64,000 nucleotides of DNA from Cytobacillus pseudoceanisediminis (GTDB lineage Bacteria > Bacillota > Bacilli > Bacillales > Cytobacillaceae): positions 3,410,001-3,474,000 of the forward strand of contig NZ_CP097349.1 of assembly GCF_023516215.1 (NCBI RefSeq), given 5' to 3'. Positions 281-50,560 of the stretch are shown one piece after another. Position numbers and translations under genes: made by a program. The first letter of the stretch is position 1. The number at the start of each line of letters is the position of its first letter. Below the pieces are notes generated by a model. That model was not told the DNA's origin and ran no database searches. It was given only the letters and a program-made list of their open reading frames with translations.

Positions 281-358
281 TACCTAACTTTTTTGTTCAA
301 CAAAAAGAAAACCACCTATTGGCAGCTGAATTTTACGATAGTCCTTTTGCTTCACAAT
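281..358 (+). repeat. CTGCCCC element, decayed copy
   Basis: The left box has lost its CCTGCCCC core but keeps GTTCAACAAAAAG. The hairpin survives as CCACC...GGCAGCTG and the right box as GTCCTTTTGCTTCAC. It lies 5 nt beyond the stop codon of the Nudix gene to its right. Confidence 0.55.
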
Positions 359-363
359 GAGAG

Positions 364-798
364 TCATGTCAATTGAATTGGAATCAGTGCCTCGGCTTTC
401 TTAATATTTTCTTTTAAGTAAATAGGTGATTTTGGGTGGTTTAAAATTTCTTCTGAAGTTAACCAAAACACCTTTTCTACCTCATCAGGAATAATAGGTA
501 ACGCCTCACCAGATTCATATTCGCAAAGAAAAACAACATCCACCACATTTTGACCAGTATCTGTTACAAAAGAGGTGCTATTTACATAAGTTAAACTGTC
601 TTTTACTTTTACACCGACTTCTTCTAAAATTTCACGTTTTACAGTTCTTTCTAGTATATTAGATGAACTTCCTTCTATATCCACCTTACCTCCAACTAGG
701 GAAAGCAGACCTCCAGCGTGTTCCTCTTTTTTACTTCTTTCAATTATTAGCCACTTGTCATTTTTCCTTATAGCACCTTCAACATTTACAATAAACAT
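364..798 (-). CDS. Nudix hydrolase
   Basis: A 144-residue Nudix-fold enzyme. Members hydrolyse nucleoside diphosphates linked to another moiety, using divalent metal. The Nudix helix is at about residues 36-63 and ends in REILEEVGV, with the metal-binding glutamates present. Compared with the textbook box there are four extra residues between GGK and REILEE, a spacing I believe occurs in a Bacillus subgroup of uncertain substrate. Cytosolic, no signal peptide. It is a lone minus-strand gene with a CTGCCCC element after its stop and another upstream, so it behaves as one unit of the array. The fold assignment is firm; the substrate is unknown. Confidence 0.85.
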   Translation of the reverse strand: MFIVNVEGAIRKNDKWLIIERSKKEEHAGGLLSLVGGKVDIEGSSSNILERTVKREILEEVGVKVKDSLTYVNSTSFVTDTGQNVVDVVFLCEYESGEALPIIPDEVEKVFWLTSEEILNHPKSPIYLKENIKKAEALIPIQLT

Positions 799-870
799 TT
801 TAAGTCCCCCAATATTTAATTGTATTTATTTTTCTTTAAATCTCATTAACTTCCCTTCCATTACTATGTT

Positions 871-968
871 TTTATTTCAGCTAACCTGCACCTTCAGCTG
901 TACAAAAAAACCGACTGGGTTTGGCAGCTGAACTCGAACATCAGCATCCACCATTGTATAAGACAAGA
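871..968 (+). repeat. CTGCCCC element, full copy
   Basis: The left box reads CTAACCTGCACC...TGTACAAAAAAA, the hairpin CCGACTGGGTTTGGCAGCTG is imperfect, and the right box is GCATCCACCATTGTATAAG. It ends 4 nt from the stop codon of the ABM-domain gene. Confidence 0.7.
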
Positions 969-972
969 ATCA

Positions 973-1299
973 TTATATTTCGAAAAAGTTATCGCGTTCT
1001 ACTTTACACACTCTTAGTGCGAAACTCTTATACCATTCATTTTTACCTCTAACCTGTGCAACTTGATGTGCCGAGTATTCCTTCCAATTCTTTATTGCAT
1101 CCAATGAAGCCCAATATGAAACTGTAATTCCCAACCCTTCATCACGAGCACTTTCCAGGCCTAAGAATCCCTTTTGCTGAGAAGCTAACTCTGCCATTTT
1201 TTCCGCCATTTTTCCGTAACCTCTATCTCCCTCAGTTCTCTGTGATGAAAATATTACTGCGTAATAAGGTGGTTCAGGAGTTTTTACAATTCCATTCAT
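973..1299 (-). CDS. Antibiotic biosynthesis monooxygenase (ABM) domain protein
   Basis: A 108-residue single-domain dimeric alpha/beta barrel protein of the ABM superfamily. The core YYAVIFSSQRTEGD, the GFLGLESARDEG strand and YWASLDAIKNWK helix are typical of a Bacillus subgroup annotated as antibiotic biosynthesis monooxygenase, though many members have no shown monooxygenase role. I chose the ATG preceded by GGAGG with 8-nt spacing; an upstream in-frame extension would run into the next CTGCCCC element and lacks a ribosome binding site. A lone cassette-like gene. Confidence 0.8.
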   Translation of the reverse strand: MNGIVKTPEPPYYAVIFSSQRTEGDRGYGKMAEKMAELASQQKGFLGLESARDEGLGITVSYWASLDAIKNWKEYSAHQVAQVRGKNEWYKSFALRVCKVERDNFFEI

Positions 1300-1360
1300 A
1301 CATTGTTTCCTCCAGTTTAATATTTTTATAATTCCCGCTATTCTATTATAAATATTTTTA

Positions 1361-1410
1361 AACAAGAAAAGCGACTGCCTTATTGAGCAATCGCACACTA
1401 TTTAATAAGA
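1361..1410 (+). repeat. CTGCCCC element, GCGA/TCGC hairpin variant
   Basis: AACAAGAAAA is followed by a hairpin with GCGA-TGC and GCA-TCGC arms and a right box CACACTATTTAATAAG. The left CCTGCCCC core is missing. The hairpin variant is shared with the copies at 28166 and 49855. Confidence 0.55.
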
Positions 1411-1519
1411 TATTTACTTATGGTTTCATTTGGTCATTTGCATCCATTTATAATCTGCCTGGGGTCGCAGTCATTATCAAGACATGCTCGGCTACTTTTC
1501 ATTAACTTGAATATTTTTA

Positions 1520-1744
1520 TCAAACGCATAAATGCTGACAAGCTTCGGCCTGAACTAATTCCTCCAATTTTTTTACTTTAGCAGAATCCTCATAAATTCT
1601 TTTCACTAATGTGGTCCTTGCCGTGATTCTCCAGGATGAGGTCAGCGAAAAAGACACACAGTCAGGCAATTTTACATTACATAACATCCATGAACTTTTA
1701 TTTATATAAATATCACTTAAATCCCCTATGATTTCGGGATAATG
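1520..1744 (-). pseudogene. Unrecognised coding remnant
   Basis: About 70 codons stay open directly after, and in the same frame as, the stop of the DUF402 gene. They include ...SLTSSWRITARTTLVKR and end ...QAEACQHLCV. There is no ribosome binding site and no good start; the only in-frame ATG lies about 20 codons in. Amino-acid composition looks coding. I do not recognise the family. It could be the C-terminal fragment of a former array gene. The rest of the 1300-1747 gap holds one repeat copy and nothing else I can name. Confidence 0.3.
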
Positions 1745-1747
1745 ACT

Positions 1748-2236
1748 TTACGTATGCTTTTTCACAAACTGCTCCAACAAAGGAATAAATTTCTCATGCG
1801 CATAAATGCCTTCAGATTCTGAAATCGTTTGAAGAAGAACATGATGAATAGATTTTGTTAATAAGTTTAAAGCCTGCTGGACAGAACCATTCTCAAATTT
1901 CTCCAATGACTCAGGCAATTCATCCTCGTCTAGAATAAAATATTCTCCATTCGGAAGTACTAAAATATCGATTATTAAATCTTCAAAACATACCATTCTA
2001 TCGCTTATCAATGTATTTTTTACAATGTTAAAATATGAGCCCAAATACTTTCCTTTATGGTCTCTCCAGAAATATAGATTATATGGGCGATTTTCCCAGT
2101 AATAAGCAATTGTATAGCTGCCTCTCGGTATTGTTAATTGAGTTTGATTGGCTTTCATTGTAAAAGTGTCTTCAATAATATGAAAAAGCACCGCACTTTG
2201 ATTTTGCACTGTCAACAGCATACAATTATATTCCAC
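1748..2236 (-). CDS. DUF402 domain protein, start uncertain
   Basis: A 162-residue DUF402 protein. The family includes nucleoside tri/diphosphate phosphatases and FomD. The diagnostic run DLIIDILVLPNGEYFILDEDELP is present near residues 87-109. The start given is a GTG without a ribosome binding site. The same frame stays open upstream for 25 codons and encodes ERKIRYDSEVVEY, the expected N-terminal strand of the family. An ideal GGGAGG lies 8 nt before an ATA codon at 2309-2311, so the real start may be ATA, or an ATG that has mutated. Cytosolic. Lies next to a GNAT gene in the same orientation. Confidence 0.75.
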   Translation of the reverse strand: MEYNCMLLTVQNQSAVLFHIIEDTFTMKANQTQLTIPRGSYTIAYYWENRPYNLYFWRDHKGKYLGSYFNIVKNTLISDRMVCFEDLIIDILVLPNGEYFILDEDELPESLEKFENGSVQQALNLLTKSIHHVLLQTISESEGIYAHEKFIPLLEQFVKKHT

Positions 2237-2349
2237 GACTTCGGAATCATACCTTATTTTTCTTTCTATTATTTCAGCCCCATTGAATTGATGAGTTCTT
2301 AGATTTGTTATAGTAGAAACCTCCCAATGGCAAATTAGAAAAGATGTAT

Positions 2350-2826
2350 TTACAACATTAAATTCATTATGTACTGTTCGCCAATTGGCCCCATTTTTCT
2401 GCGTCCTGTATCCTGAAACCCAACTTTTACATACAGTTTTTGAGCAGCAATGTTTTTGTGATTAACAGCTAACACGATTTCATTACAGTCAGGGAATTCG
2501 TCAGCAGCAAATTTTCTTAATAATAACATAGCCTGCTTTGCATATCCTCGTCCTTGCTTAGCCTGGTTAATGGATAATGATGTTAGCAGCATCGCCTGCG
2601 GATTGTCCGAATACTCCTTTACTCTTTCAGTTGAATGCAATAAAAAGAAGCCCACTGGTTCTCCATCAAAAAGGATAACGATCCGATGCTGGCCTTCTGT
2701 TACTTCTTTATAATTGCTTGGCAGTGAAGTGAATTGAACCTGCTCTTTAGGAAGCTCAAAAGAATTCAAGATATCCATATGTTCATTAGAGAAATGTTTC
2801 AATTCCAAATAATTTGTCTTTTTCAT
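2350..2826 (-). CDS. GNAT family N-acetyltransferase
   Basis: A 158-residue GCN5-related acetyltransferase that moves an acetyl group from acetyl-CoA to an unknown amine. The acetyl-CoA motif is LSINQAKQGRGYAKQAM around residues 84-100, and the C-terminal AAQKLYVKVGFQDTGRR strand-helix is typical. A good ribosome binding site (GGGGGAG) precedes the ATG. A decayed relative of the N-terminal half lies at 43490-43653, where the VTEGQHRIVIL segment is preserved. Confidence 0.85.
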   Translation of the reverse strand: MKKTNYLELKHFSNEHMDILNSFELPKEQVQFTSLPSNYKEVTEGQHRIVILFDGEPVGFFLLHSTERVKEYSDNPQAMLLTSLSINQAKQGRGYAKQAMLLLRKFAADEFPDCNEIVLAVNHKNIAAQKLYVKVGFQDTGRRKMGPIGEQYIMNLML

Positions 2827-2890
2827 TTATTCTCCCCCTCGGTACAATAGTATGATAAGAACAAATGTTTGTACAGTTAAAATTTAGTTA

Positions 2891-2933
2891 TTAAACCAAA
2901 ACAAACAATAAGCTGCCGTGATGGCAGCTGGCA
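2891..2933 (+). repeat. CTGCCCC element, hairpin part
   Basis: The hairpin AGCTGCCGTGATGGCAGCT (2911-2929) and the start of a right box (GCAC) abut the stop codon of the methyltransferase gene. The left box is reduced to AAACCAAAACAAACAATA. Confidence 0.6.
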
Positions 2934-3557
2934 CTATTTTTTCTTGCATTTTATCATGAAGAAATTTATTGATGGTTTATTTTTCATATCCTTATTTGGC
3001 TCGTCAATTTCTGAAATCTCTATCAGGCCGTAATGTCCAAATTCTTGTTTTATGGTGTGAGAATCATAAAAAAACATTTTCACACCTTCCATGATCTCAA
3101 AATAATCTTTATCCAATTGTTTGCCCTTGCCAAACATGGGGGCTTTTTTTGAAACAGCTGTAAAAATCATATAGCCATTTGGCTTTAATTGATCATAGCA
3201 ATCTTTAATAAACTTCTCTCTCTCATCCTTATTCAATAAGTGAATAAGGGCATGGGAGAATACACCAGTGTAAAGCTGGTCATCAAAAGGCATGTCAGTT
3301 ACTGAGCCATGAAAAATTCTGCTGTCAATCCCATGTTGGCTTGCCAGATCAATGGCTGTTTTTGAAATCTCAATGCCTGTCACATTTATGCCATTTTCAA
3401 TAAAAACCTTCGCATTTCTTCCATATCCAAAACCCGGCAACAGTATATCCTTAACATTCTCTTCAAGGAAAAAGTCCTTTGTTAAGATAGCGGAATCTGC
3501 AGCCTCAAATCCCCACATCGTTTGTTTTTCTATAAAACTGGATTCCCAGAATTCCAT
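2934..3557 (-). CDS. Class I SAM-dependent methyltransferase
   Basis: A 207-residue Rossmann-fold methyltransferase. Motif I is ILLPGFGYGRN at residues 38-48, the acidic residue binding the ribose is in VTGIEIS, and motif II is around FHGSVTDMPF. The substrate is unknown; the family includes TehB-like enzymes. The start chosen (MEFWESS) has AAAGGAG about 11 nt upstream, whereas an ATG eleven codons earlier has none. A lone cytosolic enzyme in the array, with a repeat hairpin touching its stop codon. Confidence 0.8.
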   Translation of the reverse strand: MEFWESSFIEKQTMWGFEAADSAILTKDFFLEENVKDILLPGFGYGRNAKVFIENGINVTGIEISKTAIDLASQHGIDSRIFHGSVTDMPFDDQLYTGVFSHALIHLLNKDEREKFIKDCYDQLKPNGYMIFTAVSKKAPMFGKGKQLDKDYFEIMEGVKMFFYDSHTIKQEFGHYGLIEISEIDEPNKDMKNKPSINFFMIKCKKK

Positions 3558-3725
3558 TAGATCTCTATCTCCTTTATGTTTTATTTTCATTGCAGCACTA
3601 GCGGCTTAACACTTATATATTTTTTAATAACAGACATAATGACTCTTTAATAACTATAATTGTTTTTTATTTTTTTGTAAATGTAATTCCTTAACAATTA
3701 ACAGAATGTATTCTTTACTACAATT

Positions 3726-3806
3726 AAGTTAAGCCAGCCTGCTCCTTTAAGTAAACAAAAAGCTGCCTGATTTGGCAGCTGCTATGAAAAAGCACATGAT
3801 AATTAA
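3726..3806 (+). repeat. CTGCCCC element, full copy
   Basis: The left box is CCTGCTCCTTTAAGTAAACAA, the hairpin AGCTGCCTGATTTGGCAGCT is perfect (3761-3780), and the right box is GCACATGATAATTAAG. It ends 9 nt before the stop codon of the second Nudix gene. Confidence 0.75.
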
Positions 3807-3815
3807 GGAGCGATA

Positions 3816-4232
3816 TTATGTACCTTCAACCCAATAAGTAGTTTTCCTCAAGATAAGATCGTTTTTAAATAATTCTTCATATACAGCCGATAACTCATCC
3901 GGAAATTTCACTATCCCAGCATCACTTACAAATCGGATTCCCTTTATCTTATTTAATTCATTCATACAAGGTACACCGCTGACAGAATCTGCAAAGTAGA
4001 AGTAACCCGTCCACTGGATATTTCTGAAATAGAAATTTCCCTGATACACCTCAGTAAGTGCATGAACGGTTAATCCGATTTCCTCTTTTACTTCCCGTTT
4101 TGCACACTTTGATGGAGTTTCGCCTAATTCCTGTTTTCCCCCTGGAAAATTCCACAGATCCCCTCTATCTTGTACTACTAAAATATGATGGTCCACATCT
4201 TTTATCAGGACACGGGTGAAAATATTTTGCAT
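3816..4232 (-). CDS. Nudix hydrolase
   Basis: A 138-residue Nudix enzyme with a canonical box at residues 31-54, GGKQELGETPSKCAKREVKE followed by EIGL, including all metal-binding glutamates. It probably clears a modified or toxic nucleotide, but the substrate cannot be read from sequence. The start is the ATG with GGAGAGG 11 nt upstream; longer in-frame readings start in AT-rich DNA with no ribosome binding site. It is not closely related to the Nudix gene at 364, so it is an independent array member. The 290 bp upstream hold nothing I can identify. Confidence 0.85.
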   Translation of the reverse strand: MQNIFTRVLIKDVDHHILVVQDRGDLWNFPGGKQELGETPSKCAKREVKEEIGLTVHALTEVYQGNFYFRNIQWTGYFYFADSVSGVPCMNELNKIKGIRFVSDAGIVKFPDELSAVYEELFKNDLILRKTTYWVEGT

Positions 4233-4526
4233 ATACGCTTTTTCCTCTCCACTAAAAGAAACAATTTTATGGCATAGAAGATACAGCCAAATCAATAAAA
4301 ACGATTGCAAAAACTAAAAAACCATGAAAAAGCTAGAATACAATACCAATTTTGGCTCTCTTATTTGTTTATAAAGGGTAAGTCCCGACTCGATCGAAAT
4401 AATCCATGTAATCATGCCCCATAGGGAAAATAAAAAGCCAAAATTTGCAATCAATAACAATCAAATGAAAAAATAATAAAGACCAGGATACCGTTTAAAT
4501 TCTTTCAATCTCATCACAGGAGTTAC

Positions 4527-5617
4527 TCAACAAAGGCACCCTGACTTTTGGGATCTAATAGAAAGAATTGCCGAAAGCAAATATTCAGCGTCCAATCCTA
4601 CTCCGCAAATCAAAGCCGAGCCTCGCTGATATTGCCAGGGTAAGCCTATAAAATACAGGCCCTTAACTTCAGTGATCCCCCTTTTATGTATTGGTTTTCC
4701 TTCATTGGAGATGACACCTTTTATATTAATCCAGTCGTATGAAGGAACGAAACCAGTGGACCAGATAATACTATCGAATTTCCTCCGAGTCTGATCTTCA
4801 AATAGAACTTCTGTATCATTGATGTGTAAAACTTTAGGTTTTACATCAACCTTTTTGACTTTTATGAGTTCTTTCAGTTCCTTTCCAAAAATCGGGTCCT
4901 TCTGTTTTTGAAACCAGCTGCCTTTTACTGTATCTTTTCCTGCAAACAGCAGACCGAGTTTATCCAGCCAATAAAAAACACTTCTTCCAAGTATCGTTAA
5001 TGGCAAAAATTTCATACTGTGACCAACAGCTATTGTGACGCTCTTATCTTTTGCTAATTCCACGGCGATTTGTGCCCCGGAATTGCCGCCGCCCACAACC
5101 AATATCTTACTTCCTGGCACTTCACCTGGGGAATGATATTCAGAAGAGTGAAGCTGAAAGGTATTTGCCCCCTTTTTATGGCATTAGGTATATATGGTTT
5201 TTGAAATGCTCCAGTTGCAATGATTACTTGCTTAGCAATCATCTTCCCGCTATTAGTTTCTAAGAGAAATGAACCATCAGGCTGTTTATTTAACTTAATT
5301 ACATTAGTGTTAAGCATGACTGGAAGATCAAAATGCTTAACATAGTCAATCAAATAGTCCGCCATCTCATCTTTCGCTGGAAGTTCATTTGATGAACCTC
5401 CCATTTGTAATCCAGGCAAACTGCTATATCGGCGTGGGGTAAATAAAACCAGGGAATGGTATCTTTTCCTCCAGGAGTCCCCCGCGTCCCCAGTTTTTTC
5501 CAATATGACAAAGGATACATTTTCTTTTTTTAAATAATATCCCATTGCTAATCCTGCCTGACCTCCACCAATAATGGCCACTTCATAATTTATTATGTTC
5601 TCACTCCTCTCACACAA
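4527..5617 (-). CDS. FAD/NADPH-dependent monooxygenase (CzcO-like), frameshifted
   Basis: A flavin-containing monooxygenase-type oxidoreductase of about 360 residues, read here in two frames. The N-terminal part has the FAD motif GGGQAG at residues 17-22. The C-terminal part has the NADPH motif GGGNSGAQIA and the late IWSTGF motif. The frames join near 5164-5175, in an AAAAAGGGGG run: one extra A restores GANTFQLHSSEYHSPGEVPG, the linker expected in the family. Either a base was undercalled or the gene is a recent pseudogene. Predicted cytosolic; substrate unknown. A repeat hairpin lies upstream, but none directly after the stop. Confidence 0.75.
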
Positions 5618-5685
5618 AAGTTATTCAAATATTGATTTGAATATTATTATATAATAACCAGAAAAAGGAATACACATTTTAAAAA

Positions 5686-5720
5686 TAAAAACAGCTGCCT
5701 CTTGGCAGCTGTTCATAAAA
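5686..5720 (+). repeat. CTGCCCC element, hairpin part
   Basis: The perfect hairpin CAGCTGCCTCTTGGCAGCTG follows AAAAATAAAAA. No left core or right box is recognisable. A second weak hairpin (GGACCTTC...GAAGGCCC, about 5724-5753) lies between it and the CueP stop. Confidence 0.6.
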
Positions 5721-5755
5721 AATGGACCTTCTTTGTCGATGAACCGAAGGCCCCT

Positions 5756-6283
5756 TTAAGTTAATTGCATGGTTGTAATACAAGTACCCTCATTCTCAAA
5801 AGTTAAAATTTCTGATTCCGATGTTTTTCCATCATACTTAATCTTTATTTGATATGTTTCATCTCTTGGGAGCCATAAATCAAAAAATCCATTTGCTTGG
5901 GACTTTACTTTTTCGTTCAAAATGACATTGCCTTTCGTATCTTCGATATATACATCAAACTCTTTATCAGCTAATTCACCTTGACAACCTGTCAAGCTAT
6001 GATTAGTTCAAGGGTGGGTTTCATTAACGTAAGGTGCAATTGAAACGAAAAACTCTTCTTTCGGCAGATCATAGACTAATTCTTCACCATCCGCTTTTTT
6101 TACCAGTAGCTGCTGTGAGGTAATCGAAGCAGACTCGCTCTTAACGTTTCCTGCACTATAATCATTCACCAATTCCTTGATGTTATCAGCCTTCAAAGCG
6201 GCCTCATCATTTGAATCGGCTTGTCCACAGCCAGCTAATACTATTGAAATGAGTAAGACAGACAGAAATAGTTTTACCTTCAC
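5756..6283 (-). CDS. cueP: CueP-family lipoprotein with an in-frame UGA at a conserved Cys
   Basis: A CueP-like copper-binding envelope protein of about 175 residues with a lipoprotein signal (VLLISIVLAGC). The sequences NVKSESASITSQQL, DLPKEEFFVSIAPYVNETHP, LTGCQGEL and SQANGFFDLWLPRDETY are characteristic of the family. In bacteria, CueP binds copper outside the cytoplasm. A TGA at 6008-6010 interrupts the frame where homologues, as I recall them, have the first Cys of the metal-site region; the frame continues without a shift. This is a nonsense mutation or, less likely, a selenocysteine codon: a perfect 7-bp hairpin with a GGT loop begins 11 nt after it (5980-5996). GTG start with a modest ribosome binding site. 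Confidence 0.75.
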
Positions 6284-6379
6284 CTTTGTTCACATCCTTA
6301 TTCAGTTTCATGCTTAAATGACTATTGCCAAAGTAAACAATAGCAAATAAATATGGAGAAATTATGGAGAAATGATTTG

Positions 6380-6408
6380 CAGCACCCGCTGCTTAAATAA
6401 GCAATTCG
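6380..6408 (+). repeat. CTGCCCC element, right box only
   Basis: GCACCCGCTGCTTAAATAAGCAATTC resembles the right box and tail of complete copies, such as that at 23982. There is no hairpin or left box. Confidence 0.5.
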
Positions 6409-6464
6409 AATGTAACTATGCTAAAGTTATCATGCATAGATATTTTCAGAGGCTGTGAGTCAAA

Positions 6465-7418
6465 TTGAACTTAATTGAAAAATTATATACTGTTATAATA
6501 TTTTTAGCAGTGATTTTTGGTATTAGTATAGGGCAAGCAGAGTTAATAAGGGCTAATGCGGAAAGTTTTATTGTGCCTTTATTAGTAGCAATGCTATATA
6601 TTACTTTTTTACAAATTCCTATTGAAGATATCAAGATAGCTTTTAAGAACATAAAATTTACATACACTTCAATCCTCATAAACTTTGTCTGGACACCCAT
6701 CCTGGCATGGCTGCTGGCAATGGTATTTTTAGGCGATAATCCATCACTATATATTGGATTTATTATGCTGATGGTTACACCATGCACTGATTGGTACCTA
6801 ATCTTTACAGGCATAGCAAAAGGAAATGTTGCCTTATCAACTGCTATCCTGCCTCTAAACTTAATCTTACAGGTCATATTGCTGCCTATCTGCCTTCTGA
6901 TCTTTGGCGGAACGACAGGAGTAATAGAACTGGGGTTTTTAGTTGAAAGTATTCTGGTTGCATTAATCATACCGTTAGTTCTGGCTGTTTTAACAAAGAT
7001 ACTCTTAAAAAACAAGGATCAGTTAAGAGAAAGCCTTGTATCCAGCCTTAGCGTGCTGCCAATTATTTTTCTAAGCTTTGCCATCGTGGCAATGTTTGCG
7101 TCACAGGGACAATTATTGCTTAACCATTTAGATTTACTGTGGAAAATAACAATACCTATCCTTTTATTTTTTATGATTAATCTTTTTGTCAGTCAAAAAG
7201 CTGGACAGCTTATGAGATTCCCGAACTCCGACAGAGCCAGTTTAAGCTTGACCACTTTAGCCAGAAATTCCCCGATTGCTTTAGCCATTGCTATGACTGC
7301 ATTTCCAGACCAGCCTTTGATTGCGTTGACCTTAGTAGTAGGCCCTCTGCTGGAATTGCCTATCCTGGCAGTCATCACCCAGATTTTATTATTTATCACT
7401 AAAGAGAAAAGAACATAA
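6465..7418 (+). CDS. Bile acid:sodium symporter / ACR3-like transporter
   Basis: A 317-residue integral membrane protein with about ten hydrophobic helices. The segment MLMVTPCTDWYLIFTGIAKGN around residues 103-123 matches the APCT...W-G-LAKG signature of the arsenite (ACR3) and bile acid:sodium symporter superfamily, and a second half has the matching ARNSPIALAIA helix. It may export arsenite or carry an organic anion; no arsR or arsC lies beside it. The start is TTG with a weak AGAGG upstream. First plus-strand gene in the window, ending in its own terminator and not in a repeat copy. Confidence 0.75.
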   Translation: MNLIEKLYTVIIFLAVIFGISIGQAELIRANAESFIVPLLVAMLYITFLQIPIEDIKIAFKNIKFTYTSILINFVWTPILAWLLAMVFLGDNPSLYIGFIMLMVTPCTDWYLIFTGIAKGNVALSTAILPLNLILQVILLPICLLIFGGTTGVIELGFLVESILVALIIPLVLAVLTKILLKNKDQLRESLVSSLSVLPIIFLSFAIVAMFASQGQLLLNHLDLLWKITIPILLFFMINLFVSQKAGQLMRFPNSDRASLSLTTLARNSPIALAIAMTAFPDQPLIALTLVVGPLLELPILAVITQILLFITKEKRT

Positions 7419-7422
7419 AAAT

Positions 7423-7461
7423 GAAAGCACATATCCTTTTTATTTATGAATATGTGCTTTC
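7423..7461. terminator. Terminator after the BASS/ACR3 gene
   Basis: The 12-bp inverted repeat GAAAGCACATAT / ATATGTGCTTTC sits directly after the stop codon, with a T-rich loop and a short TT tail. It could work in both directions. Confidence 0.7.
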
Positions 7462-7533
7462 TTAACTTGTCTCAATAGCACAAAAAAGGTTGTTAATCTA
7501 ACATTCATGTGAATACATTAGTTATAACACCCC

Positions 7534-8073
7534 TCATATCTTCCCTTCTCTAATCTGCCCAATCAGCTTATCCAGCCAATAAATAGCGTGCTCTGCTTTG
7601 GTCGACACATACCCGCCAAGAAACTCGATCAGTTTCTCATTATCTTTGTCTTTTTCAATCAGCTGTTCAAAACTTTTATAATACTCCCACTTAGCCTTGG
7701 AGCTCTTTAATTTCTCTTCAAGGATAGCGACTGCTTTATCTTGATCTACATATTTGATGTTGGCTAAACCCACCAACATTTCACCGATCGAATCGGCCGT
7801 TTCAAACAATTTGTAGATTTTTTTCGGCAGCTCTTCCCGGCCTTTAGCTGTGATTTCAAATATTTGTTTATCCGGCCGATGTTCTTCTTTAATTATTTCG
7901 ACTGTTGCAATTAAGCCCTGTTTCGCTAATGAATCGAAATGGTAGTACAGCTTGCTTTCTGTCAATCCAGCTAGCTGATCAAATGGAATAGGCTCTGAAA
8001 GCTGCTTTTTTATTTTATAAGGATAATTCTTACCCTCCATCAGTTTGGTTAATATAAATATTTGAATGGTCAT
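7534..8073 (-). CDS. PadR family transcriptional regulator
   Basis: A 179-residue PadR-type regulator. An N-terminal winged helix (about residues 1-80; FILTKLMEGKNYPYKIKKQL and KLYYHFDSLAKQGLI) is followed by a C-terminal helical dimerisation domain. PadR proteins are usually repressors released by small aromatic or membrane-active compounds. GGAG lies 8 nt before the ATG. It lies downstream of the P450 gene on the same strand and could regulate it, though the 135-bp gap leaves this open. Confidence 0.85.
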   Translation of the reverse strand: MTIQIFILTKLMEGKNYPYKIKKQLSEPIPFDQLAGLTESKLYYHFDSLAKQGLIATVEIIKEEHRPDKQIFEITAKGREELPKKIYKLFETADSIGEMLVGLANIKYVDQDKAVAILEEKLKSSKAKWEYYKSFEQLIEKDKDNEKLIEFLGGYVSTKAEHAIYWLDKLIGQIREGKI

Positions 8074-8208
8074 TCTTTATGCTCCTTCAAGAGAATTACC
8101 CTTATTTTAGCAAAATGAATCTGGCATTTCAGCCTCATCCTTTACCTCTCCAATATTAAAACTCCCTTAAAGCAGTCAGTGTGCCTGCTTTAAGGGAGCC
8201 TTTATTCC

Positions 8209-9440
8209 TTACTTATACACGTTCATCGGCAGATTCGTTAAAGACTGGCCAGTGGCTGATGCCGTTAAATTCTTTTCTAATTCAAACCCTTCCACTGGTT
8301 CGATGCTGGAGAACTTCTTCACGAAGGTCTCCAGCGCTATTTTCATTTCCAGGCGTGCCAGAGGTGCACCCAAACAGAAATGCGGGCCATTTCCGAATGT
8401 TAGATGCTTTTTATTGTTAGGACGATGTATGTTTATAGAAAAAGGATCATCAAACATCCGATGGTCCATATTGCATGCACTCATCCAGGCAATAACGACA
8501 TCCCCTTCTTTTAACTCAACGCCCATTAAATTGTTATCCTTTTTCACAGTTCGGTCTCTTCTCGACATATGAAAACGATAGCGGAGCATTTCTTCAACTG
8601 CATTTGGCACTAATTCCAGGTCATTACGCAGTTCTCCATATAAAGACTCATCATCATAAAGCAATGAATAAAACGTATTGGCAATCGCATGACTGGTTGT
8701 TTCCACTCCTGCGCCTAAAAGCAGCATGGTCACCTGCACAATTTCATTATCGGTAAACTTTTCACCATCTACTTCAGCTTGAATTAAATCAGAGATAATA
8801 TCATCCGAAAGGTTCGACCGCTTTTGAACAACAATCGGATAGAGATATTGGAAATATTCTTTCGCAGCATTCTGTTTTTGAAGCTCTATGTCTTCCAGTC
8901 TCTCTTTATCGTAAGGCTGGAAAAGGATATCCACCCATTCTTTGAATTGAGCTCTGTCCTGTATCGGCACGCCGAATAAATCTGCAATAACCATACTTGG
9001 CAGCGGGGCTGCTAAAGCCTCAACAATATTAATTTCATTATTATCCTGGATGTTTTCTACTAGCTCCTCGGCAATCTGCTTGATGCGCGGCTCCCAATTC
9101 TTTAAACTGCGGGGAGTAAAAGCTGCTGCTAACAAGGAACGCCCTTTCCGATGATCCGGCGGATCTACAAGTGTAAGATTTGTTAAAGGCGACGCTTTCT
9201 CATGCTTGTCATTTGCCCCAACAAATATCGTTGTTCTCGGTCCGGCACTTGAAAAAATTCATAGTTGCCCAGCACCTGTTTCACACCCTCATAGGTAAAC
9301 ACATTCCATGTATTCGTTTGTTCATGATAATACACGGGATGATGGTGAAGCATGTCCTTATACCACTCAATAGGAAAAAACTCTTCTGCACGTGACTTAA
9401 AATTAGTAATCTCATTTACGGGAATGACTTCTTTCAACAT
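8209..9440 (-). CDS. Cytochrome P450, frameshifted
   Basis: A soluble bacterial P450 of about 409 residues, close to the CYP109-type size. The heme-binding loop is FGNGPHFCLG, the oxygen-activating I-helix LLLGAGVETTSHAI and the K-helix VEEMLRYRF. The N-terminal 75 residues are in another frame: one extra T in the TTTTTT run near 9256 restores NYEFFSSAGPRTTIFVGAND and the continuous family sequence. This is an undercalled homopolymer or a fresh frameshift. The ATG at 9440 has a GGAGG-type site upstream. The substrate, perhaps a fatty acid or terpenoid, is unknown. Confidence 0.8.
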
Positions 9441-9986
9441 ACTATTTCTTTTCCTCCTTTAAGATGATGGGGATTCACTGGGCTGCACCAAAATAAGATT
9501 TAATAATCTACTAAGGTAAATGTACCTTCCGTATTACATTACTCTAAACAAAGTAGTTTAAAAAGAGTAATTTCGGCTAAAGATTTCCATTTTTTTATTT
9601 GAGGGGAATTTTATATATAGTCCATGTAACCTACATATAGGGAGAGGTTTTTTCAGAAAACATACGTATAAGCAGCCTCCCTATGCTGTTTATACGAAGT
9701 CTGCAACTCATAGATAGGTACCTATTTAATTCACTGCCTAAATATAGTATGACAAGTGGCATATCCAGAAAAAAACACATGGGAATTTTGGCTTTTTAGT
9801 GATTAGACATATGTTAAGGAATAAATATAGAGATGAGTCCCTTGTTAAATAAGATTTAAAAGGAGGCCTCGTCATGATTATCAAGGGGATTCGGCACAGA
9901 TAATTAACAGGGGCAGGGCAACCATGCTCCGGAAAGAATTTGATCTGCCACATAGTAACGATGATTAGATAATACGGAGGTAAAAA
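9441..9986. other. Intergenic region with three inverted repeats
   Basis: This 546-bp gap between the divergent P450 and hydrolase genes holds no gene I can support. It has three palindromes: AAGGTAAATGTACCTT (9513-9528), a hairpin CGTATAAGCAGC/GCTGTTTATACG (9665-9696) and ATAGGTACCTAT (9714-9725). The first is 73 bp upstream of the P450 start and is a candidate operator. A reverse-orientation CCTGCCCCTGTTAATTA near 9905-9921 may be a decayed repeat. Confidence 0.4.
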
Positions 9987-10829
9987 ATGACTGAACGAAT
10001 TCTGAAAATAAATAATGTGGATATATGTACAGAAAGCTTTGGAAATGCTAAGGATCCAGCCATCCTTTTGATCATGGGCGCAATGACTTCACTGGACTGG
10101 TGGGATGAGGAATTCTGTCTCCGCCTTGCTGATAAGGGTAGATTTGTGATTCGATACGATCACCGGGATCTGGGACGATCGACCATTTATGAACCTGGTA
10201 CTTCAAATTATACAATAACGGACTTGGCTGACGATGCGGCCGGTGTACTGGATGCTTATCATATAGAGCAGGCACATATCGTTGGCATGTCCATGGGCGG
10301 CCTAACTGGCCAAATTCTTGCCTTAAGATATCCGGACCGTGTACTGACGCTTACGCTGATTGCATCAAGTGTGTTCGGGACTGAGATGGAAAAGCTGCCT
10401 CCAATGGATCAGAACATACTGGATTACCACGCGAAGAGTGCTTCTATCAATTGGTCGGATCGGGATGCTGCAATTGCTTTTCTTGCGGGCGGCTGGAAAA
10501 CTTTAGCCGGCTCCAAACCTTTCGAGCAGGAAAGAATATATAAACTTGCTTCAAGAGAAGCAGACCGCGCCAAACATCTGCCGAGCAGATTTAACCATGC
10601 CATGCTGCAAGGTGGAGACGTATATTTCGATAGAATGGATGAGATCAGTGTACCGGTGCTCATTATTCATGGCACAGAAGACCCAGCTCTCCCATACGAG
10701 CACGGGCTTGCTCTTAAGAAAGCCATCCCTCATTCTGAATTAGTGACACTTGATGGAACTGGGCATGAGATTCATAGTGAAGACTGGAATCAGATTATAG
10801 ATTCTGTTATAAAGCTTAGTGCGAGATAA
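9987..10829 (+). CDS. Alpha/beta hydrolase
   Basis: A 280-residue alpha/beta-hydrolase. The nucleophile elbow is GMSMGG (Ser about residue 102), the acid is probably the Asp in HGTEDPALP and the base the His in GTGHEIHS. The oxyanion-side segment is LIMGAMTSLDWWDEEF, followed by RYDHRDLGRS. It resembles the group containing aclacinomycin methylesterase (RdmC) and related esterases. ATG with GGAGG upstream. A single plus-strand gene with its own terminator. Confidence 0.85.
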   Translation: MTERILKINNVDICTESFGNAKDPAILLIMGAMTSLDWWDEEFCLRLADKGRFVIRYDHRDLGRSTIYEPGTSNYTITDLADDAAGVLDAYHIEQAHIVGMSMGGLTGQILALRYPDRVLTLTLIASSVFGTEMEKLPPMDQNILDYHAKSASINWSDRDAAIAFLAGGWKTLAGSKPFEQERIYKLASREADRAKHLPSRFNHAMLQGGDVYFDRMDEISVPVLIIHGTEDPALPYEHGLALKKAIPHSELVTLDGTGHEIHSEDWNQIIDSVIKLSAR

Positions 10830-10914
10830 GAAGAATAAGTGGAAAGAAAATACACCTTCACACAAGAAGTCTTGGTTTAGTTGTATTGAATTATTTTTTT
10901 AAAGGAAAGTTCAA

Positions 10915-10957
10915 AGCCCAATTTCTCAATGTTATGAGCGGGAAATTGGGCTGCTTT
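10915..10957 (+). terminator. Intrinsic terminator after the hydrolase gene
   Basis: The 11-bp stem AGCCCAATTTC / GAAATTGGGCT is followed by GCTTTT. The remaining DNA to 11140 shows no gene. Confidence 0.7.
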
Positions 10958-11140
10958 TACTTCAGAATTACGGCATTAAAATAAAACAGCCATTGTGATA
11001 AATGCATTTGTTTAAAAATTTTAGATTACACTATATCAGAAAAGGGCTAAAGCCTATCCAGCAATTTTGCTCCTTTCACAAAGAAAATACGCATTTCTTA
11101 TTTCAAAAAGCGCCCGATTGTTGAAGTTCTTAATTACTAT

Positions 11141-11194
11141 GTCTTATTGAACTAAAGCACCCTTTAGCTTAAGTATAATTCTTTCACAATCTTG
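11141..11194 (+). repeat. CTGCCCC element, right box
   Basis: GCACCCTTTAGCTTAAGTATAATTC plus the CACAATCTTG tail, preceded by GTCTTATTGAACTAAA, which resembles the left arm. Core and hairpin are missing. It lies about 100 bp beyond the DinB stop codon. Confidence 0.55.
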
Positions 11195-11905: not shown

Positions 11906-12000
11906 TTCTTGAAAAACTAACCTGCCCCGTTAGTCGAAGAAGAAAAAGGGTTGCCGTTCCAGTGGATTTTCAACTCTTGCACCCGTTTAGGATATAAAAG
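11906..12000 (+). repeat. CTGCCCC element, CAACTC hairpin variant
   Basis: The left box is CTAACCTGCCCCGTTAGTCGAAGAAG. The hairpin arms are GGTTGCC and CAACTC rather than GCTGCC/GGCAGC, and the right box is GCACCCGTTTAGGATATAAAAG. The copy at 35820 has the same variant. Confidence 0.7.
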
Positions 12001-16028: not shown

Positions 16029-16127
16029 CGTATATTATGTTTAACTCCTTAAATACCATTCTCTTTTTCATCTTTTCTATCAATATAAGGTGGTCTGTTT
16101 GGACGTCTCGAGATATTTCTAGATAAT

Positions 16128-35108: not shown

Positions 35109-35124
35109 ATTAATAGAAAAAGAC

Positions 35125-38607: not shown

Positions 38608-38700
38608 GAAACCTTAATCATTTCGTTGGGCTACTATTATTGTTCAGCGAAATGGTTATTATACTATAAACAAATTTATTAAAATTTTTCTTGTTCAGTA

Positions 38701-38806
38701 AAAGGAACCGTTATGTAAAAGATTTGGTTAAATAAGAAAAAGCTGCCTTACTTGGCAGCTAATCTTGAGCATAAGCACCATTAGATTAAGTACAAGTATT
38801 GACAAA
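38701..38806 (+). repeat. CTGCCCC element, altered left box
   Basis: The hairpin AGCTGCCTTACTTGGCAGCT (38741-38760) and right box GCACCATTAGATTAAGTAC are near consensus. The left box lacks the CCTGCCCC core (GGAACCGTTATGTAAAAGAT, then TTGGTTAAATAAG). Confidence 0.7.
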
Positions 38807-38907
38807 GTCGTTAAAGAGATAAAAAAAGGCAGCTTCTCTGCATCTATCTATATTCTCAAAAACCATTGCTGCAGTGGCCGGTTCTTTTTTAACGGGTTTT
38901 CTTTGTC

Positions 38908-39054
38908 TTAGGAATTAGGAGAGGAGTTTTCCGCTATAGAGTCAGAACTTCTATTTTTCAGAATTTCATTGATTTCGCCAACATCGCCTTTGGCATTTAT
39001 TATTTCAAATACCTGATTCAGTCCTTCGCTAGTTTCCTGCTCATTGTCTTTCAT
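38908..39054 (-). CDS. Small acidic protein, unknown function
   Basis: A 48-residue acidic protein: MKDNEQETSEGLNQVFEIIN, then KGDVGEINEILKNRSSDS. An excellent AAAAGGAGGG precedes the ATG. Not recognised. A full repeat copy lies 100 bp downstream of its stop. Confidence 0.6.
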   Translation of the reverse strand: MKDNEQETSEGLNQVFEIINAKGDVGEINEILKNRSSDSIAENSSPNS

Positions 39055-39164
39055 TCGAATCCCTCCTTTTAGAATTCATTCATTATAGGTTTTCCAACTT
39101 TACCTTTTATATCCAGAGCGAATACTATTTTTCAACTCACTTCACAATAGAAACCCATAATTGC

Positions 39165-39196
39165 TTTGGAAGTTACCTGCCCATTTATAAATAGGA
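39165..39196 (+). repeat. Possible CTGCCCC left box
   Basis: GGAAGTTACCTGCCCATTTATAA has the spacer but poor arms. Weak. Confidence 0.3.
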
Positions 39197-39206
39197 ATGA
39201 AGATGT

Positions 39207-39470
39207 TTGTCTTTATTGCTGCACTCTTTGTATTTAATTATTAATAATGAAAATGCTCCTACTACTAAGGAAGATAAAAGCACCCTTATCATATCGGCTC
39301 TAGATGCAGATCATAATGAATTTGATTTATTTTTCTGTATTTTTATGGATGCAGGAGGGAAAATGCTATCAAAGCAAATTGCTAACAAAGATTTGGAACA
39401 ATATAGATATGCCATAACTAAAAGAACTTTGGAGGAAATTGTGGCAGAGCTGTTCTATTTCAAAATATGA
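39207..39470 (+). CDS. Hypothetical protein
   Basis: An 87-residue protein. The first 15 residues are hydrophobic and the rest soluble (STLIISALDADHNEFDLFFC, KRTLEEIVAELFYF). TTG start with a weak AGGA; a better ATG four bases upstream is in another frame and would give a proper signal peptide (MFVFIAALFVFNY), so a one-base indel between them is possible. Family not recognised. Confidence 0.45.
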   Translation: MSLLLHSLYLIINNENAPTTKEDKSTLIISALDADHNEFDLFFCIFMDAGGKMLSKQIANKDLEQYRYAITKRTLEEIVAELFYFKI

Positions 39471-39533
39471 TTAGCTTAAGAATACCTTTTCTATAAATAA
39501 TTCCTGGCAATTCCCAAACATCTCCATTTCAAT

Positions 39534-40040
39534 TTAAAATTGTTTTTCTCCATATGCTTTAATAATCCTGTAAAATCTCACCCATAAACTTTGGACCACC
39601 AAATAAATAACAAAAGAATAATAGCTGTTATATCCATTCTGATAGTGAAAGATCCCTATGTACTCAGAAAATAGCTCTATCCCAACACTTATAAACGCCC
39701 ATCCCAAAATGAATAACAGAGATAAATTTGGCTTTATATTAAAGAAGTCATATATATAAAAGAATAGATAGCTGAATGGTGCATACATCACATGAGATAA
39801 AAAATCCATCAATTGAAAGGAAGAATTATCATTAATATCATAATAACTAACTGGCAGCACACTTAAAATGTGATCGAAAAAGAAACCAGTAAACACGCCA
39901 CATAAAAGGTACACACAGGTTGTCTTATTTGTAAAACGTTTTGGCAGTTTTAACACCACTAAAGTTCCAACAATGAGCGAAATGACGATAAACCACTCAT
40001 TAGCATTAAAATTATGATCATAATAACGAATTCCATTCAT
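39534..40040 (-). CDS. CBO0543-like integral membrane protein
   Basis: A 168-residue protein with about five membrane helices. It starts MNGIRYYDHNFNANEWF after AAAGGAG. The aromatic-rich loops (FHYQNGYNSYYSFVIYL) match the CBO0543 family of clostridial and bacillar membrane proteins of unknown role. It overlaps the end of the preceding membrane gene by 23 bp, so the two are translated as a pair. Confidence 0.6.
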   Translation of the reverse strand: MNGIRYYDHNFNANEWFIVISLIVGTLVVLKLPKRFTNKTTCVYLLCGVFTGFFFDHILSVLPVSYYDINDNSSFQLMDFLSHVMYAPFSYLFFYIYDFFNIKPNLSLLFILGWAFISVGIELFSEYIGIFHYQNGYNSYYSFVIYLVVQSLWVRFYRIIKAYGEKQF

Positions 40041-40509: not shown

Positions 40510-40610
40510 AGTGATCATCCTTTAAATAGCTGTCAGATACATGTATTATTCCCAAAAGCCATACCAACATTTACAAATATAAAAAAACAAGAGCGATACA
40601 CTCTATTCCC

Positions 40611-40680
40611 TCCTTTACTAGCCTGCCCCTTTAATTAGACAAGAAAAATAGCCGCCTATTGGCAGCTTGATGTAAAAGTT
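40611..40680 (+). repeat. CTGCCCC element, left box and hairpin
   Basis: The left box is TTACTAGCCTGCCCCTTTAATTAGACAAG and the hairpin GCCGCCTATTGGCAGC. It ends 22 bp from the next stop codon. Confidence 0.7.
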
Positions 40681-49055: not shown

Positions 49056-49407
49056 AATAATTCCTCCAAACAGTTTCTGATCCAGTATCATATATTATTA
49101 ATTGTATATTAGATATATAAACTCGACAAAAACTATGAATGGCACTTTTCAACAAATCTGGCCAAGAAAATGAAGGATAACCTTTGTACCTTTACGGCCA
49201 CTTCTTCGGGTCGTAAGCAAGACTGGAAAACCAGTAGAGAAATCTCCAATCATGGAGACGATGAATTTTACCCAAGTTTTACACCTGACCCAAAATAATA
49301 AACCAGAATAGCAGGACCTCCTATATGATCTCAGACAATGATGAGGTTTCCTTCATACGAGAGAAACTGGATGATCCGCCAATGGGTTAGCTAAATATTA
49401 AAATGAT
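49056..49407. other. Gap with a plus-strand coding remnant
   Basis: No intact gene. Between about 49180 and 49390 short plus-strand frames look coding in turn (TATSSGRKQDWKTSREISNH, DDEFYPSFTPDPK, later DDEVSFIREKLDDPPMG), suggesting a decayed gene, perhaps a TolB-like propeller. Too broken to name. Confidence 0.3.
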
Positions 49408-49437
49408 AGCCTCCTTATGTCTGTATGGAGGCTGTTT
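49408..49437 (-). terminator. Hairpin after the ABM gene
   Basis: AGCCTCC / GGAGGCT with a 12-nt loop lies 14 bp beyond the stop codon; A-rich on the left, so it fits minus-strand termination. Confidence 0.65.
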
Positions 49438-49450
49438 AATTAAAAACCAA

Positions 49451-49744
49451 TTAAAGAGGAACGTTTTCAAAATGTTCAACTGCAGGAAACGGATCATAAA
49501 AATGATGCAGCTGTCTTTTCCATTCCTGATACTCTTTCGATTGTCTAAACCCAACTGTATGGGCCTCTAATGATTCCCACTTCACAAGTAATAGATATTT
49601 CCCCTTAATTTCCATACATCTCTGCAGCTCGTGAGATATGTACCCTTTCATGGAAGCAATAATTTTTGATGCCTCACGGAATGCTTGTTCATATTCTTCC
49701 TCCATCCCTTCTTTTACTTGTAGCATTACTGCTTCTAAAATCAT
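49451..49744 (-). CDS. Antibiotic biosynthesis monooxygenase (ABM) domain protein
   Basis: A 97-residue ABM-fold protein: MILEAVMLQVKEGMEEEYEQ, IIASMKGYISHELQRCME, LLLVKWESLEAHTVGFRQS and FYDPFPAVEHFE. It is a different subgroup from the gene at 973. Family members are often called quinol monooxygenase-like. The start is the ATG with AAAGGGG 10 nt upstream. Confidence 0.8.
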   Translation of the reverse strand: MILEAVMLQVKEGMEEEYEQAFREASKIIASMKGYISHELQRCMEIKGKYLLLVKWESLEAHTVGFRQSKEYQEWKRQLHHFYDPFPAVEHFENVPL

Positions 49745-49854
49745 GTAAATTATCCCCTTTCCCTGATTGTTCATTTACTGTATAGTTCCGATTTCTGATT
49801 AATGATTACAAGAGAATGTTCTAATTATTTTCCATACTTCATTTATTAAAGGAA

Positions 49855-49925
49855 TGCAGCCCATTAGGATAATAATACAGGTGATTCCTCCATTATAGAA
49901 GACTCACCCCTTATGTTGATCAAAG
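49855..49925 (+). repeat. CTGCCCC element, GCGAT-type hairpin variant
   Basis: GCAGCCCATTAGGATAATAA is a decayed left box. The hairpin is GTGATTCCTCC...AGACTCAC and the right box CACCCCTTATGTTGATCAAAG. It ends 8 bp from the DinB stop codon. Confidence 0.55.
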
Positions 49926-49933
49926 TGAAAATT

Positions 49934-50416
49934 TCAACTTTCATTAAACCATTTGCGTAATTGATTTATATGAGCCTGATGATACCTGCTATGGTCTGCT
50001 ATATGCCATATACCCCATTGGATTGTTGCTTGGTTTCCATTTTCATATTCAATTATTCGAGTTAATTGCAAATCTGTTAACTGCTGACATAACGTCTTAA
50101 TCATATCCATAACGTCATCGTATTCTTTAAGCAGCACATCCAGGGGGATTCCATCAAACTGCGGTAATCGGTTGTCTTCATCCAATATTGGTCCATATTT
50201 ATTCTCCAGATTTAACGGCATTATCTCACCCTTTATTCTAAACACCCAGTTCAGGTCGACCAAAGCTAGATGTCTAAGCAATTGGGCTGTGCTGTTATAA
50301 TTCTGTTTAGGGCCTTTATAATCCAACTCCCTTTGGGACATACCTCCCACGATAGACTTCAGCCGTCGATAATTCCCATCCACCATAGAATAGAGCAGCC
50401 CTACAATAGGTTCCAT
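49934..50416 (-). CDS. DinB family protein
   Basis: A 160-residue DinB-type protein with His positions in LLRHLALVDLNWVF and WHIADHSRYHQAHINQL. The ATG has AAAGGCGAG upstream; an in-frame ATG ten codons earlier has none. The fourth DinB gene of the window and the last gene with an adjoining repeat copy. Confidence 0.8.
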   Translation of the reverse strand: MEPIVGLLYSMVDGNYRRLKSIVGGMSQRELDYKGPKQNYNSTAQLLRHLALVDLNWVFRIKGEIMPLNLENKYGPILDEDNRLPQFDGIPLDVLLKEYDDVMDMIKTLCQQLTDLQLTRIIEYENGNQATIQWGIWHIADHSRYHQAHINQLRKWFNES

Positions 50417-50511
50417 TGTTAGCTCGCCTTTTAAATCTAAAATCATTCAATAATACACCTCTCGTTCTGTTTTTCATAATTTGTTAATATTGGAAATTAA
50501 TAGACTCACAT

Positions 50512-50560
50512 ATTATATTAACCAACCTGTCCCGGTTGTACAAAAGAGAAGGCCATTTGG
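50512..50560 (+). repeat. CTGCCCC element, left box
   Basis: ATTAACCAACCTGTCCC with GGTTGTACAAAAGAGAAGGCC. The rest is replaced by the BCCT terminator. Confidence 0.55.

Follow-up and report, generated by a model that had tools for sequence, protein, structure and literature searches.

The DNA analyzed here, hereafter the window, is a stretch of 64,000 nucleotides from Cytobacillus pseudoceanisediminis (C1:3410001-3474000 of genome G000, 5.69 Mb in two contigs). It holds a long array of mostly single genes, accompanied by a structured element that is repeated in one orientation and, at one place, by the broken gene of a Xer-like tyrosine recombinase. We describe the array, the sites in the element and the movement of the genes between them. 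G000 is counted wherever genome counts are said to include our own.

The motif CTGCCCC was found 21 times in the window against 4.0 expected, and 19 of these copies were on the plus strand. A covariance model built from 13 window copies, which match it by construction, detected 36 elements on the minus strand and three weak ones (E 0.17-0.22) on the plus strand, 39 in all at E ≤ 1. With a position matrix trained on this genome, 32 core sites of at least 12 bits were detected on the minus strand and five on the plus strand. Since the site is near-palindromic, four of these five coincide with minus-strand sites. Twenty local shuffles of the window gave a mean of 0.55 core sites on both strands, with a maximum of three.

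The 30 open reading frames (ORFs) scanned were mostly unrelated single genes (Nudix, ABM, GNAT, methyltransferase, YCII, glyoxalase, YunG, DinB, hydrolases). Plus-strand ORFs are present inside the array at 9987, 21915, 24305, 32567 and 37555, and the site orientation is unaffected there. Among 31 minus-strand ORFs picked by hand, 30 had a core of at least 12 bits somewhere downstream, 14 of them within 150 bp; a few more minus-strand ORFs adjoin degenerate copies (269-359 and 2867-2964). A preliminary description of this DNA had reported about 40 copies in one orientation and units of one unrelated gene each, and our results agree with both. Its figure of about 30 copies just past a stop codon was too high. 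It had also spoken of minus-strand genes only, which is right for the fixed orientation of the sites and wrong for the genes. Rfam at gathering scores gave no match in the window, and no tRNA was found in it. A promoter search in the first 150 bp of 79 units gave results slightly above shuffles, not above the reverse strand.

Genome-wide, at least 109 matches at E ≤ 1 were obtained with model R1 (150 candidates scored). On C1 they cluster at 0.997-1.125 Mb (plus), 1.874-1.878 Mb (minus), 3.329-3.524 Mb (minus) and 4.679-4.690 Mb (plus), with single matches at 0.891 Mb (plus) and at 2.323, 2.493 and 2.690 Mb (minus). On the 342-kb contig C2, presumably a plasmid, the clusters are at 44-186 kb (plus) and 297-317 kb (minus). 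A reverse match at 996828 is weak (E 0.2) and overlaps a forward match. In nine fetched regions of the two contigs, 121 of 121 profile matches keep the single orientation of their region. In the 75 array intervals of 250-2000 bp, the longest ORF was co-directional with the sites in 61 and opposite in seven, and seven had none. On these two counts, the one-orientation array of single-gene cassettes by which integrons are recognized is present here. Since the sign of the GC skew equals the array orientation in all nine own array regions, co-orientation of the arrays with replication is suggested, which is confounded by gene direction.

The repeat, formerly taken for a single element, is composite, and copies lie outside the window as well. 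In the coding orientation (minus strand in the window), the full element consists of box1 (B-type), a terminator hairpin and box2 (A-type). Box1 reads ...ACTTAAACAAACGGGTGC^TTTTGTTCAATAAG or ...GTTCAAGATC, with the B-type core GGGTGC. The hairpin reads AGCTGCC...GGCAGCTTTTT, and box2 reads CTTATTNAACTAAA-GGGGCAG-GTTAGTTGAATAAG. A unit boundary is a 35-bp site, in which inverted arms of 14 bp enclose the 7-bp core GGGGCAG. Box2 is symmetric about its centre, and its 7-bp core is asymmetric, with 1.16-1.45 bits at positions 1-6 and 0.66 bits at position 0. The own array regions, 456 kb in all, gave 144 box2 sites of at least 11 bits with a matrix that had been trained on them. The other strand gave 23, as the site is near-palindromic, and local shuffles gave 4.2. 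Box1 was present at 36 of 142 box2 sites (control windows: three). There were 62 B-only matches; for 39 of these, the next 110 bp downstream held no A site. Some of the 62 may be A sites that have decayed. The refined B matrix drifted towards the A consensus: 117 of its 179 matches are A sites and 45 are on the opposite strand (6.3 in shuffles). Since this matrix is an A/B mixture, the B counts are rough. One element queried against phage records gave no match.

The features of the window are as follows. G034 is labelled as the same species and is the only same-species genome compared; G005 and G032 are further genomes, and L069 is another recombinase locus.

872-906, minus: A-type site, 25.7 bits; box2 of element 871-964, which holds the left edge (927) of a block shared with G034
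3725-3759, minus: weak A-type site, 16.0 bits; element 3724-3810
11143-11176, minus: B-type site, GGGTGC core, 28.8 bits (mixed B matrix); the block replaced in G034 (27.5 kb) has its left breakpoint here
11908-11942, minus: A-type site, 36.5 bits
12700-14440, plus: IS110-family element in an A-type site, beside the core; transposase 13064-14293; ends set by eye, within a few bases
16028-17768, plus: second copy of the IS110-family element, 99.7% identical to the first; also within an A-type site
18422-18456, minus: A-type site, 34.9 bits
19054-19088, minus: A-type site, 41.6 bits
19622-19656, minus: A-type site, 33.1 bits; directly after the recombinase pseudogene
19677-20524, minus: pseudogene of the Xer-like tyrosine recombinase, split over two frames (ORFs 19677-20012 and 19979-20524); L069:7883-8731 is the intact homologue
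20592-20625, minus: B-type site, 15.3 bits; upstream boundary of the recombinase unit
23009-23043, minus: A-type site, 35.2 bits
23984-24077, minus: best full element; box1 (B-type) at 24044-24077, then the terminator hairpin, then box2 (A-type, 45.9 bits) at 23984-24018
26161-26195, minus: B-like site, in which blocks common to the window and G032 have an end (26177) and a start (26188)
26719-26753, minus: A-type site, 40.9 bits
27527-27561, minus: A-type site, 44.3 bits
28295-28329, minus: A-type site, 41.0 bits
28764-28798, minus: A-type site, 33.2 bits
29188-29222, minus: A-type site, 25.8 bits
29224-29803, minus: cassette with a glyoxalase-fold protein (29345-29716); 12 loci, 11 contexts each side
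29784-29818, minus: A-type site, 36.9 bits
30267-30301, minus: A-type site, 32.4 bits
31113-31147, minus: A-type site, 25.0 bits; the cassette exchanged in G005 has its downstream crossover here
31147-31960, minus: cassette with an alpha/beta hydrolase (31174-31899), replaced in G005
31960-31994, minus: A-type site, 38.4 bits; the cassette exchanged in G005 has its upstream crossover here
34768-34802, minus: A-type site, 32.8 bits
35040-35835, minus: cassette with DinB (35125-35649); the shared part begins at GCAGGTTAGTGGAATAAA
35819-35853, minus: A-type site, 41.2 bits
36426-36460, minus: A-type site, 31.7 bits
38690-38723, minus: decayed site; beside it, at 38696, the segment replaced in G034 has its right breakpoint
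40609-40643, minus: A-type site, 31.2 bits
48679-48713, minus: weak A-type site, 16.1 bits
50513-50547, minus: A-type site, 23.3 bits
57285-57319, minus: A-type site, 25.7 bits; outside 281-50560

Units of the array recur elsewhere in the genus. Elements were detected at E ≤ 0.01 in 35 of 36 genus genomes (own included), with 1 to 77 in each; four of these 35 have one weak match only, possibly by chance. Pieces of the window between 21900 and 41400 match 32 of the 36 genomes at E ≤ 1e-20. They are gene-sized, many are 90-98% identical, and in other species they stand beside unrelated neighbours. Three cassettes were followed through the loci that carry them, the window included. The hydrolase cassette (31147-31960) has 10 downstream contexts in 13 loci and 11 upstream contexts in 14 loci, where L054 and L174 are the same place and were merged into one context. 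The DinB cassette (35040-35835) has four downstream and nine upstream contexts in 10 loci, and the glyoxalase-fold cassette (29250-29795) has 11 on either side in 12 loci. In G005, the order of the units is retained, except that the hydrolase unit (31152-31959) is replaced by about 540 bp of another unit. By these comparisons, the array units are mobile.

Turnover was also detected within the species. G034 matches the window at 927-11167 (99.0%) and at 39988-71557 (extended coordinate; 98.9%), and 27.5 kb between 11167 and 38696 are replaced by 7.4 kb of other sequence. The left end of the replacement is a B-type core, and the right end is a decayed site beside a block of 94.6% identity (38696-39946). 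An insertion of about 0.9 kb between G034 and G000 lies at a site with its core at 71581 (G000:C1:3481581); in G034, a site was scored at one end of this insertion only. As a separate observation, tandem repeats of about 52 bp, visible as ladders of BLAST matches between G000 and G034, are present at C1 3332619-3333460 and 3493169-3493641, inside the flanks common to both genomes.

To place the crossover, identity was analyzed column by column at the unit ends. At the 5′ end (36 cases, 16 sites), it stepped inside the core: up to core position 0 it was about that of random site pairs (0.53 vs 0.53), and at +4 to +6 it was 0.97-1.00 against 0.78-0.84, with a few arm positions somewhat above random (e.g. 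-5 at 0.67 vs 0.41). At the 3′ end (26 cases, 16 sites), it was high to about +5 (0.96, with a dip of 0.73 at +3) and past +5 mostly near random (+6, 0.69 vs 0.84; +7, 0.50 vs 0.51; +17, 0.19 vs 0.25), although arm positions +8, +15 and +19, among others, remained above random. The filters of both sets demand a site in the target. With fewer loci and looser filters (49 cases at the 5′ end and 43 at the 3′ end, 22 sites each), the 5′ step was the same and the 3′ step was noisier. Since the identity steps there at both unit ends, the aligned sequences put the crossover inside the 7-bp core in the cases tested; because the core itself is conserved, it cannot be placed more finely. For the B-type boundaries there are less data (11 cases at the 5′ end and three at the 3′ end, three sites each), and the upstream arm is conserved. 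Nine of the 11 are the recombinase unit, in which the leader is constant and the sequence before GGG(T/G/C)GC varies. In one 3′ case, the same gene end is followed by two different terminator modules, with the join at the B core.

This crossover position bears on the view that the array is a true integron, or a cluster of attC sites lacking an integron integrase (CALIN), in which attC sites folded as single strands are moved by an IntI-type integrase. Mostly single-gene units, a fixed orientation and a site after the gene are as expected from it. The outer bases also fit RYYYAAC/GTTRRRY, and element 23984-24077, one of four elements folded, forms one long hairpin (z -4.4). However, exchange takes place in the GGGGCAG and GGGTGC cores and not at the outer G^TTRRRY. 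Element 35818 folds equally well (z -4.4), yet its fold consists of separate hairpins; for 34767 (z -1.4) and 31959 (z +0.8), folding is hardly better than in shuffles. Base-pairing covariation between box1 and box2 was not detected (24 and 36 pairs, z -1.0 and 1.6), and the best single mutual-information pair (z 5.3) was rejected, as its Watson-Crick pairs were no more than expected. The complementarity of cassette ends likewise showed no covariation for pairing in the own circle (100 pairs, z 0.34) or at the junction (142 pairs, z 0.49), and neighbour offsets were negative too. The recombinase encoded by L069 scored 105 bits with integrase_gron, for which the cut-off is 265, and lacks the IntI insertion: profile positions 180-315 number 136, and 94 residues are left in the protein, as estimated from the match limits. 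Thus, we give the attC reading, which the preliminary description had raised on account of the outer bases, next to no credence.

The ends of BLAST blocks were compared with the site positions. Between 11.9 and 41 kb of the window there are 143 block ends, and for 86 of them a core is no more than 30 bp away (an A core for 68, a B core for 18). Counted as unique ends, 40 of 79 are at A/B cores in this dense part against 5.4 expected, and 79 of 258 against 12.7 expected in all own regions. An old dispersed repeat, a terminator or a miniature inverted-repeat transposable element (MITE), whose copies give RecA-dependent exchange between strains, would leave many block ends outside sites, as is the case; it would also suit the terminator hairpin on many copies and the divergence of the copies. 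Against it, the copies share little perfect identity, yet the exchange falls within one 7-bp core. So little identity is too short for efficient RecA exchange. In addition, the orientation is kept even beside opposite-strand genes, and a dedicated recombinase is linked to the sites. We regard such a repeat as a very improbable explanation. The mobile terminator formerly proposed survives in part: a terminator is present within many units, but whole genes move along with it.

The recombinase gene of the window (19677-20524) is broken and is followed by an A-type site. An intact copy in G006 encodes a Xer-like tyrosine recombinase of 282 amino acids. In 12 of 12 aligned proteins, which were chosen for open full-length frames, the catalytic R, K, HxxR, H and Y are invariant, in agreement with the catalytic set of Xer-branch tyrosine recombinases (R, K, HxxR, H/W, Y). 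The best match in the PDB was XerD (1a0p, E 1.2e-30). With NCBIfam, the L069 protein, the first of the 12, scored 208 bits for XerA (its best; cut-off 220), 198 for XerD (330) and 196 for XerC (335), so that none of the three equivalog cut-offs was reached by it. Plasmid-borne relatives of 64-76% identity were found in Niallia taxi, Peribacillus simplex and Sporosarcina psychrophila; relatives in phage records are less than 60% identical.

A scan of GTDB genomes gave 30 recombinase loci, whose record titles name Robertmurraya, Cytobacillus, Peribacillus, Bacillus, Sporosarcina, Halalkalibacter, Heyndrickxia, Metabacillus, Neobacillus, Mesobacillus, Lysinibacillus and one Paenibacillus. Most of these loci are surrounded by R1 elements, nearly all on the recombinase strand (opposite strand at L140 and L142). 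Twenty-seven loci from several genera were analyzed more closely. Past the last codon, 20 of them carry an A-type site of at least 9 bits at a distance of 36-125 bp, which is 36-45 bp in 17. For 18 of these loci, 17 different downstream contexts were found. Integrons take up cassettes at attI beside the integrase gene; the A-type site past the recombinase is at most a candidate for a comparable entry point. As a control, 15 other tyrosine-recombinase loci of G000 (about 3.5 kb each) were analyzed, some of which neighbour each other, with three further matches of this genome outside the set. None of the 15 has an A site of at least 12 bits, and the array recombinase locus holds three. In 150 genomes of the order (own included), 12 have both elements and recombinase, seven elements only, 13 recombinase only and 118 neither (Fisher p 7.9e-7, uncorrected for phylogeny); the thresholds were E ≤ 1e-4 with strict filters for the elements (19 genomes) and E ≤ 1e-80 for the recombinase (25 genomes).

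Based on these results, we conclude with a probability of roughly 0.8 that the locus is an array of gene cassettes which conservative site-specific recombination builds and reshuffles, with a dedicated Xer-like tyrosine recombinase as the likely catalyst. A unit mostly carries one gene, often a terminator, and half-sites at its ends. The half-sites are joined inside the 7-bp GGGGCAG core (A-type) or the related GGGTGC core (B-type), with inverted arms of about 14 bp on each side. The candidate catalyst is the recombinase of about 280 amino acids that resides in the arrays; in most loci, its gene is preceded by a B-type site and followed, 36-45 bp past the last codon, by an A-type core. This recombinase would excise a unit as a circle between two sites of the same orientation, and the circle could re-enter at a matching site in the same or another array, chromosomal or plasmid. 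Since the site has a 7-bp core and inverted arms, and the breakpoints lie in the core, the layout suggests a tyrosine recombinase acting on duplex DNA. Because the only recombinase match of G000 is broken, its array is probably static or served in trans.

Several results weigh against this conclusion. At E ≤ 1e-40, a recombinase match was obtained in 14 of the 36 genus genomes (own included), several of them broken, and G000 has the broken copy only. The other 22 have no match, yet 35 of the 36 have at least one element match. The recombinase must therefore act rarely, act in trans, or be lost. Seven of the 27 recombinase loci have no site of at least 9 bits within 125 bp. Among the unique block ends, 39 of 79 in the dense array and 179 of 258 in all own regions are at no recognized site. 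In four loci, the homology of the DinB cassette to the window has its other end at position 34860, which is the outer edge of box1 and not a core. An indel between G000 and G034 (78724-80287, extended coordinate) has no site and shows a repeated short stretch instead. Moreover, the loci compared were selected from matches to the window, and the matrices and models were trained on sequences that they count, namely the copies of this genome. Decayed sites, ordinary recombination and divergence may be behind the block ends away from sites. The prediction that units are gained, lost or swapped at a fixed part of the repeat is mainly borne out, by the crossover in the core and by the turnover, although about half of the unique block ends in the dense array lie away from recognized sites. 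The more general proposal of a cassette system with fixed orientation and a different recombinase is supported by the exchange of units.

The genomes without a recombinase match mostly carry elements, and the sites have the two-arm and core layout of Xer sites. These points would be explained if the same cassettes and sites were served by the housekeeping XerC/XerD and the array recombinase were a passenger. The arms for XerC and XerD differ, whereas the two arms here are alike. The recombinase also has its own site at a near-fixed distance in the 17 loci given above, which none of the 15 control loci shares, and it co-occurs with the elements, by the p value uncorrected for phylogeny. A precedent is given by the pdif modules, which the accessible text of PMC7399989 describes with host XerC/XerD and with sites mostly in opposite orientations, in contrast to the one-way sites here. 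Taken together, a housekeeping catalyst is unlikely, and we retain the dedicated recombinase.

Three IS110-family insertions with different flanks, two in the window and one in L189 (plasmid NZ_CP062791), are each at an A-type core (CTGCCCC / insertion sequence (IS) / arm), as if the element targets the A-type site.

Sites of this kind were also observed on resistance plasmids. In pC194 (L185, NC_002013), cat (1260-1907, plus) stands between a B-type site (1079-1112, 32.4 bits) and an A-type site (1948-1984, 37.5 bits), both on the minus strand; the maxima in 200 shuffles were 12.3 and 15.6. Comparison with three related backbones did not show a cassette-type insertion of cat, as they depart at 1011 and rejoin at 2050, not at A/B cores. 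In the accessible text of two papers, primers for a chloramphenicol-resistance gene contain such sites (PMC6029982, PMC4403831). Upstream of aadD1 (aminoglycoside nucleotidyltransferase) on a staphylococcal plasmid, L188:463-497 is a similar palindromic site, which scores 29.4 bits by the B matrix and 11.9 bits by the A matrix.

We read the locus as a distinct cassette-shuffling system that would work like an integron on double-stranded sites. At about even odds, it represents a non-integron form of cassette capture in Bacillaceae, on chromosomes and plasmids, that has its own Xer-branch recombinase as an array unit, built-in terminators, and A and B cores that maybe alternate (gene units A...B, terminator/recombinase modules B...A). 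It would then fill in Bacillota the niche of the Proteobacterial integrons, and classical resistance genes such as pC194 cat may derive from it. No description of such a system was found in the open-licence literature, which is weak as an absence because only open-licence papers were covered. As far as the accessible text of PMC9024848 goes, IntegronFinder 2.0 found one complete integron and few CALIN in Firmicutes, which account for 22% of the genomes that it covers; that such clades lack integrons is called intriguing there. A passage of another review names Firmicutes among the integron-bearing phyla (PMC8618304). If the system is convergent with other parts, it would explain the swapping of accessory genes in these soil bacteria and would be a second, independent case of cassette capture to set beside integrons. 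It also offers a testable recombinase with a simple 35-bp site.

Among the known systems, integrons and CALIN are alike in their long one-orientation arrays of mostly single-gene units, in a tyrosine recombinase in or by the array, in rapid turnover between strains and in IS elements that target the site; in integrons, attC is targeted by IS elements of the IS1111 group. In contrast, the recombinase here is co-directional with the sites, is bounded like a unit and has neither the score nor the insertion of IntI. The exchange is in a core of the double-stranded type, folded-site covariation is absent, many units contain terminators, and there are two types of core. The pdif (Xer) modules of Acinetobacter, whose sites are 28 bp long, also consist of genes that lie between short Xer-like sites, each with a central region and inverted arms, whereas the arrays here are long and have 35-bp sites in one orientation per array and a dedicated recombinase. 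With XerA and the single-recombinase dif-type systems, and with Cre/lox, the array shares one recombinase and the layout of lox and dif, in which inverted arms surround an asymmetric core of 6-8 bp. It differs from them in forming cassette arrays, rather than serving dimer resolution, and in having many sites per genome.

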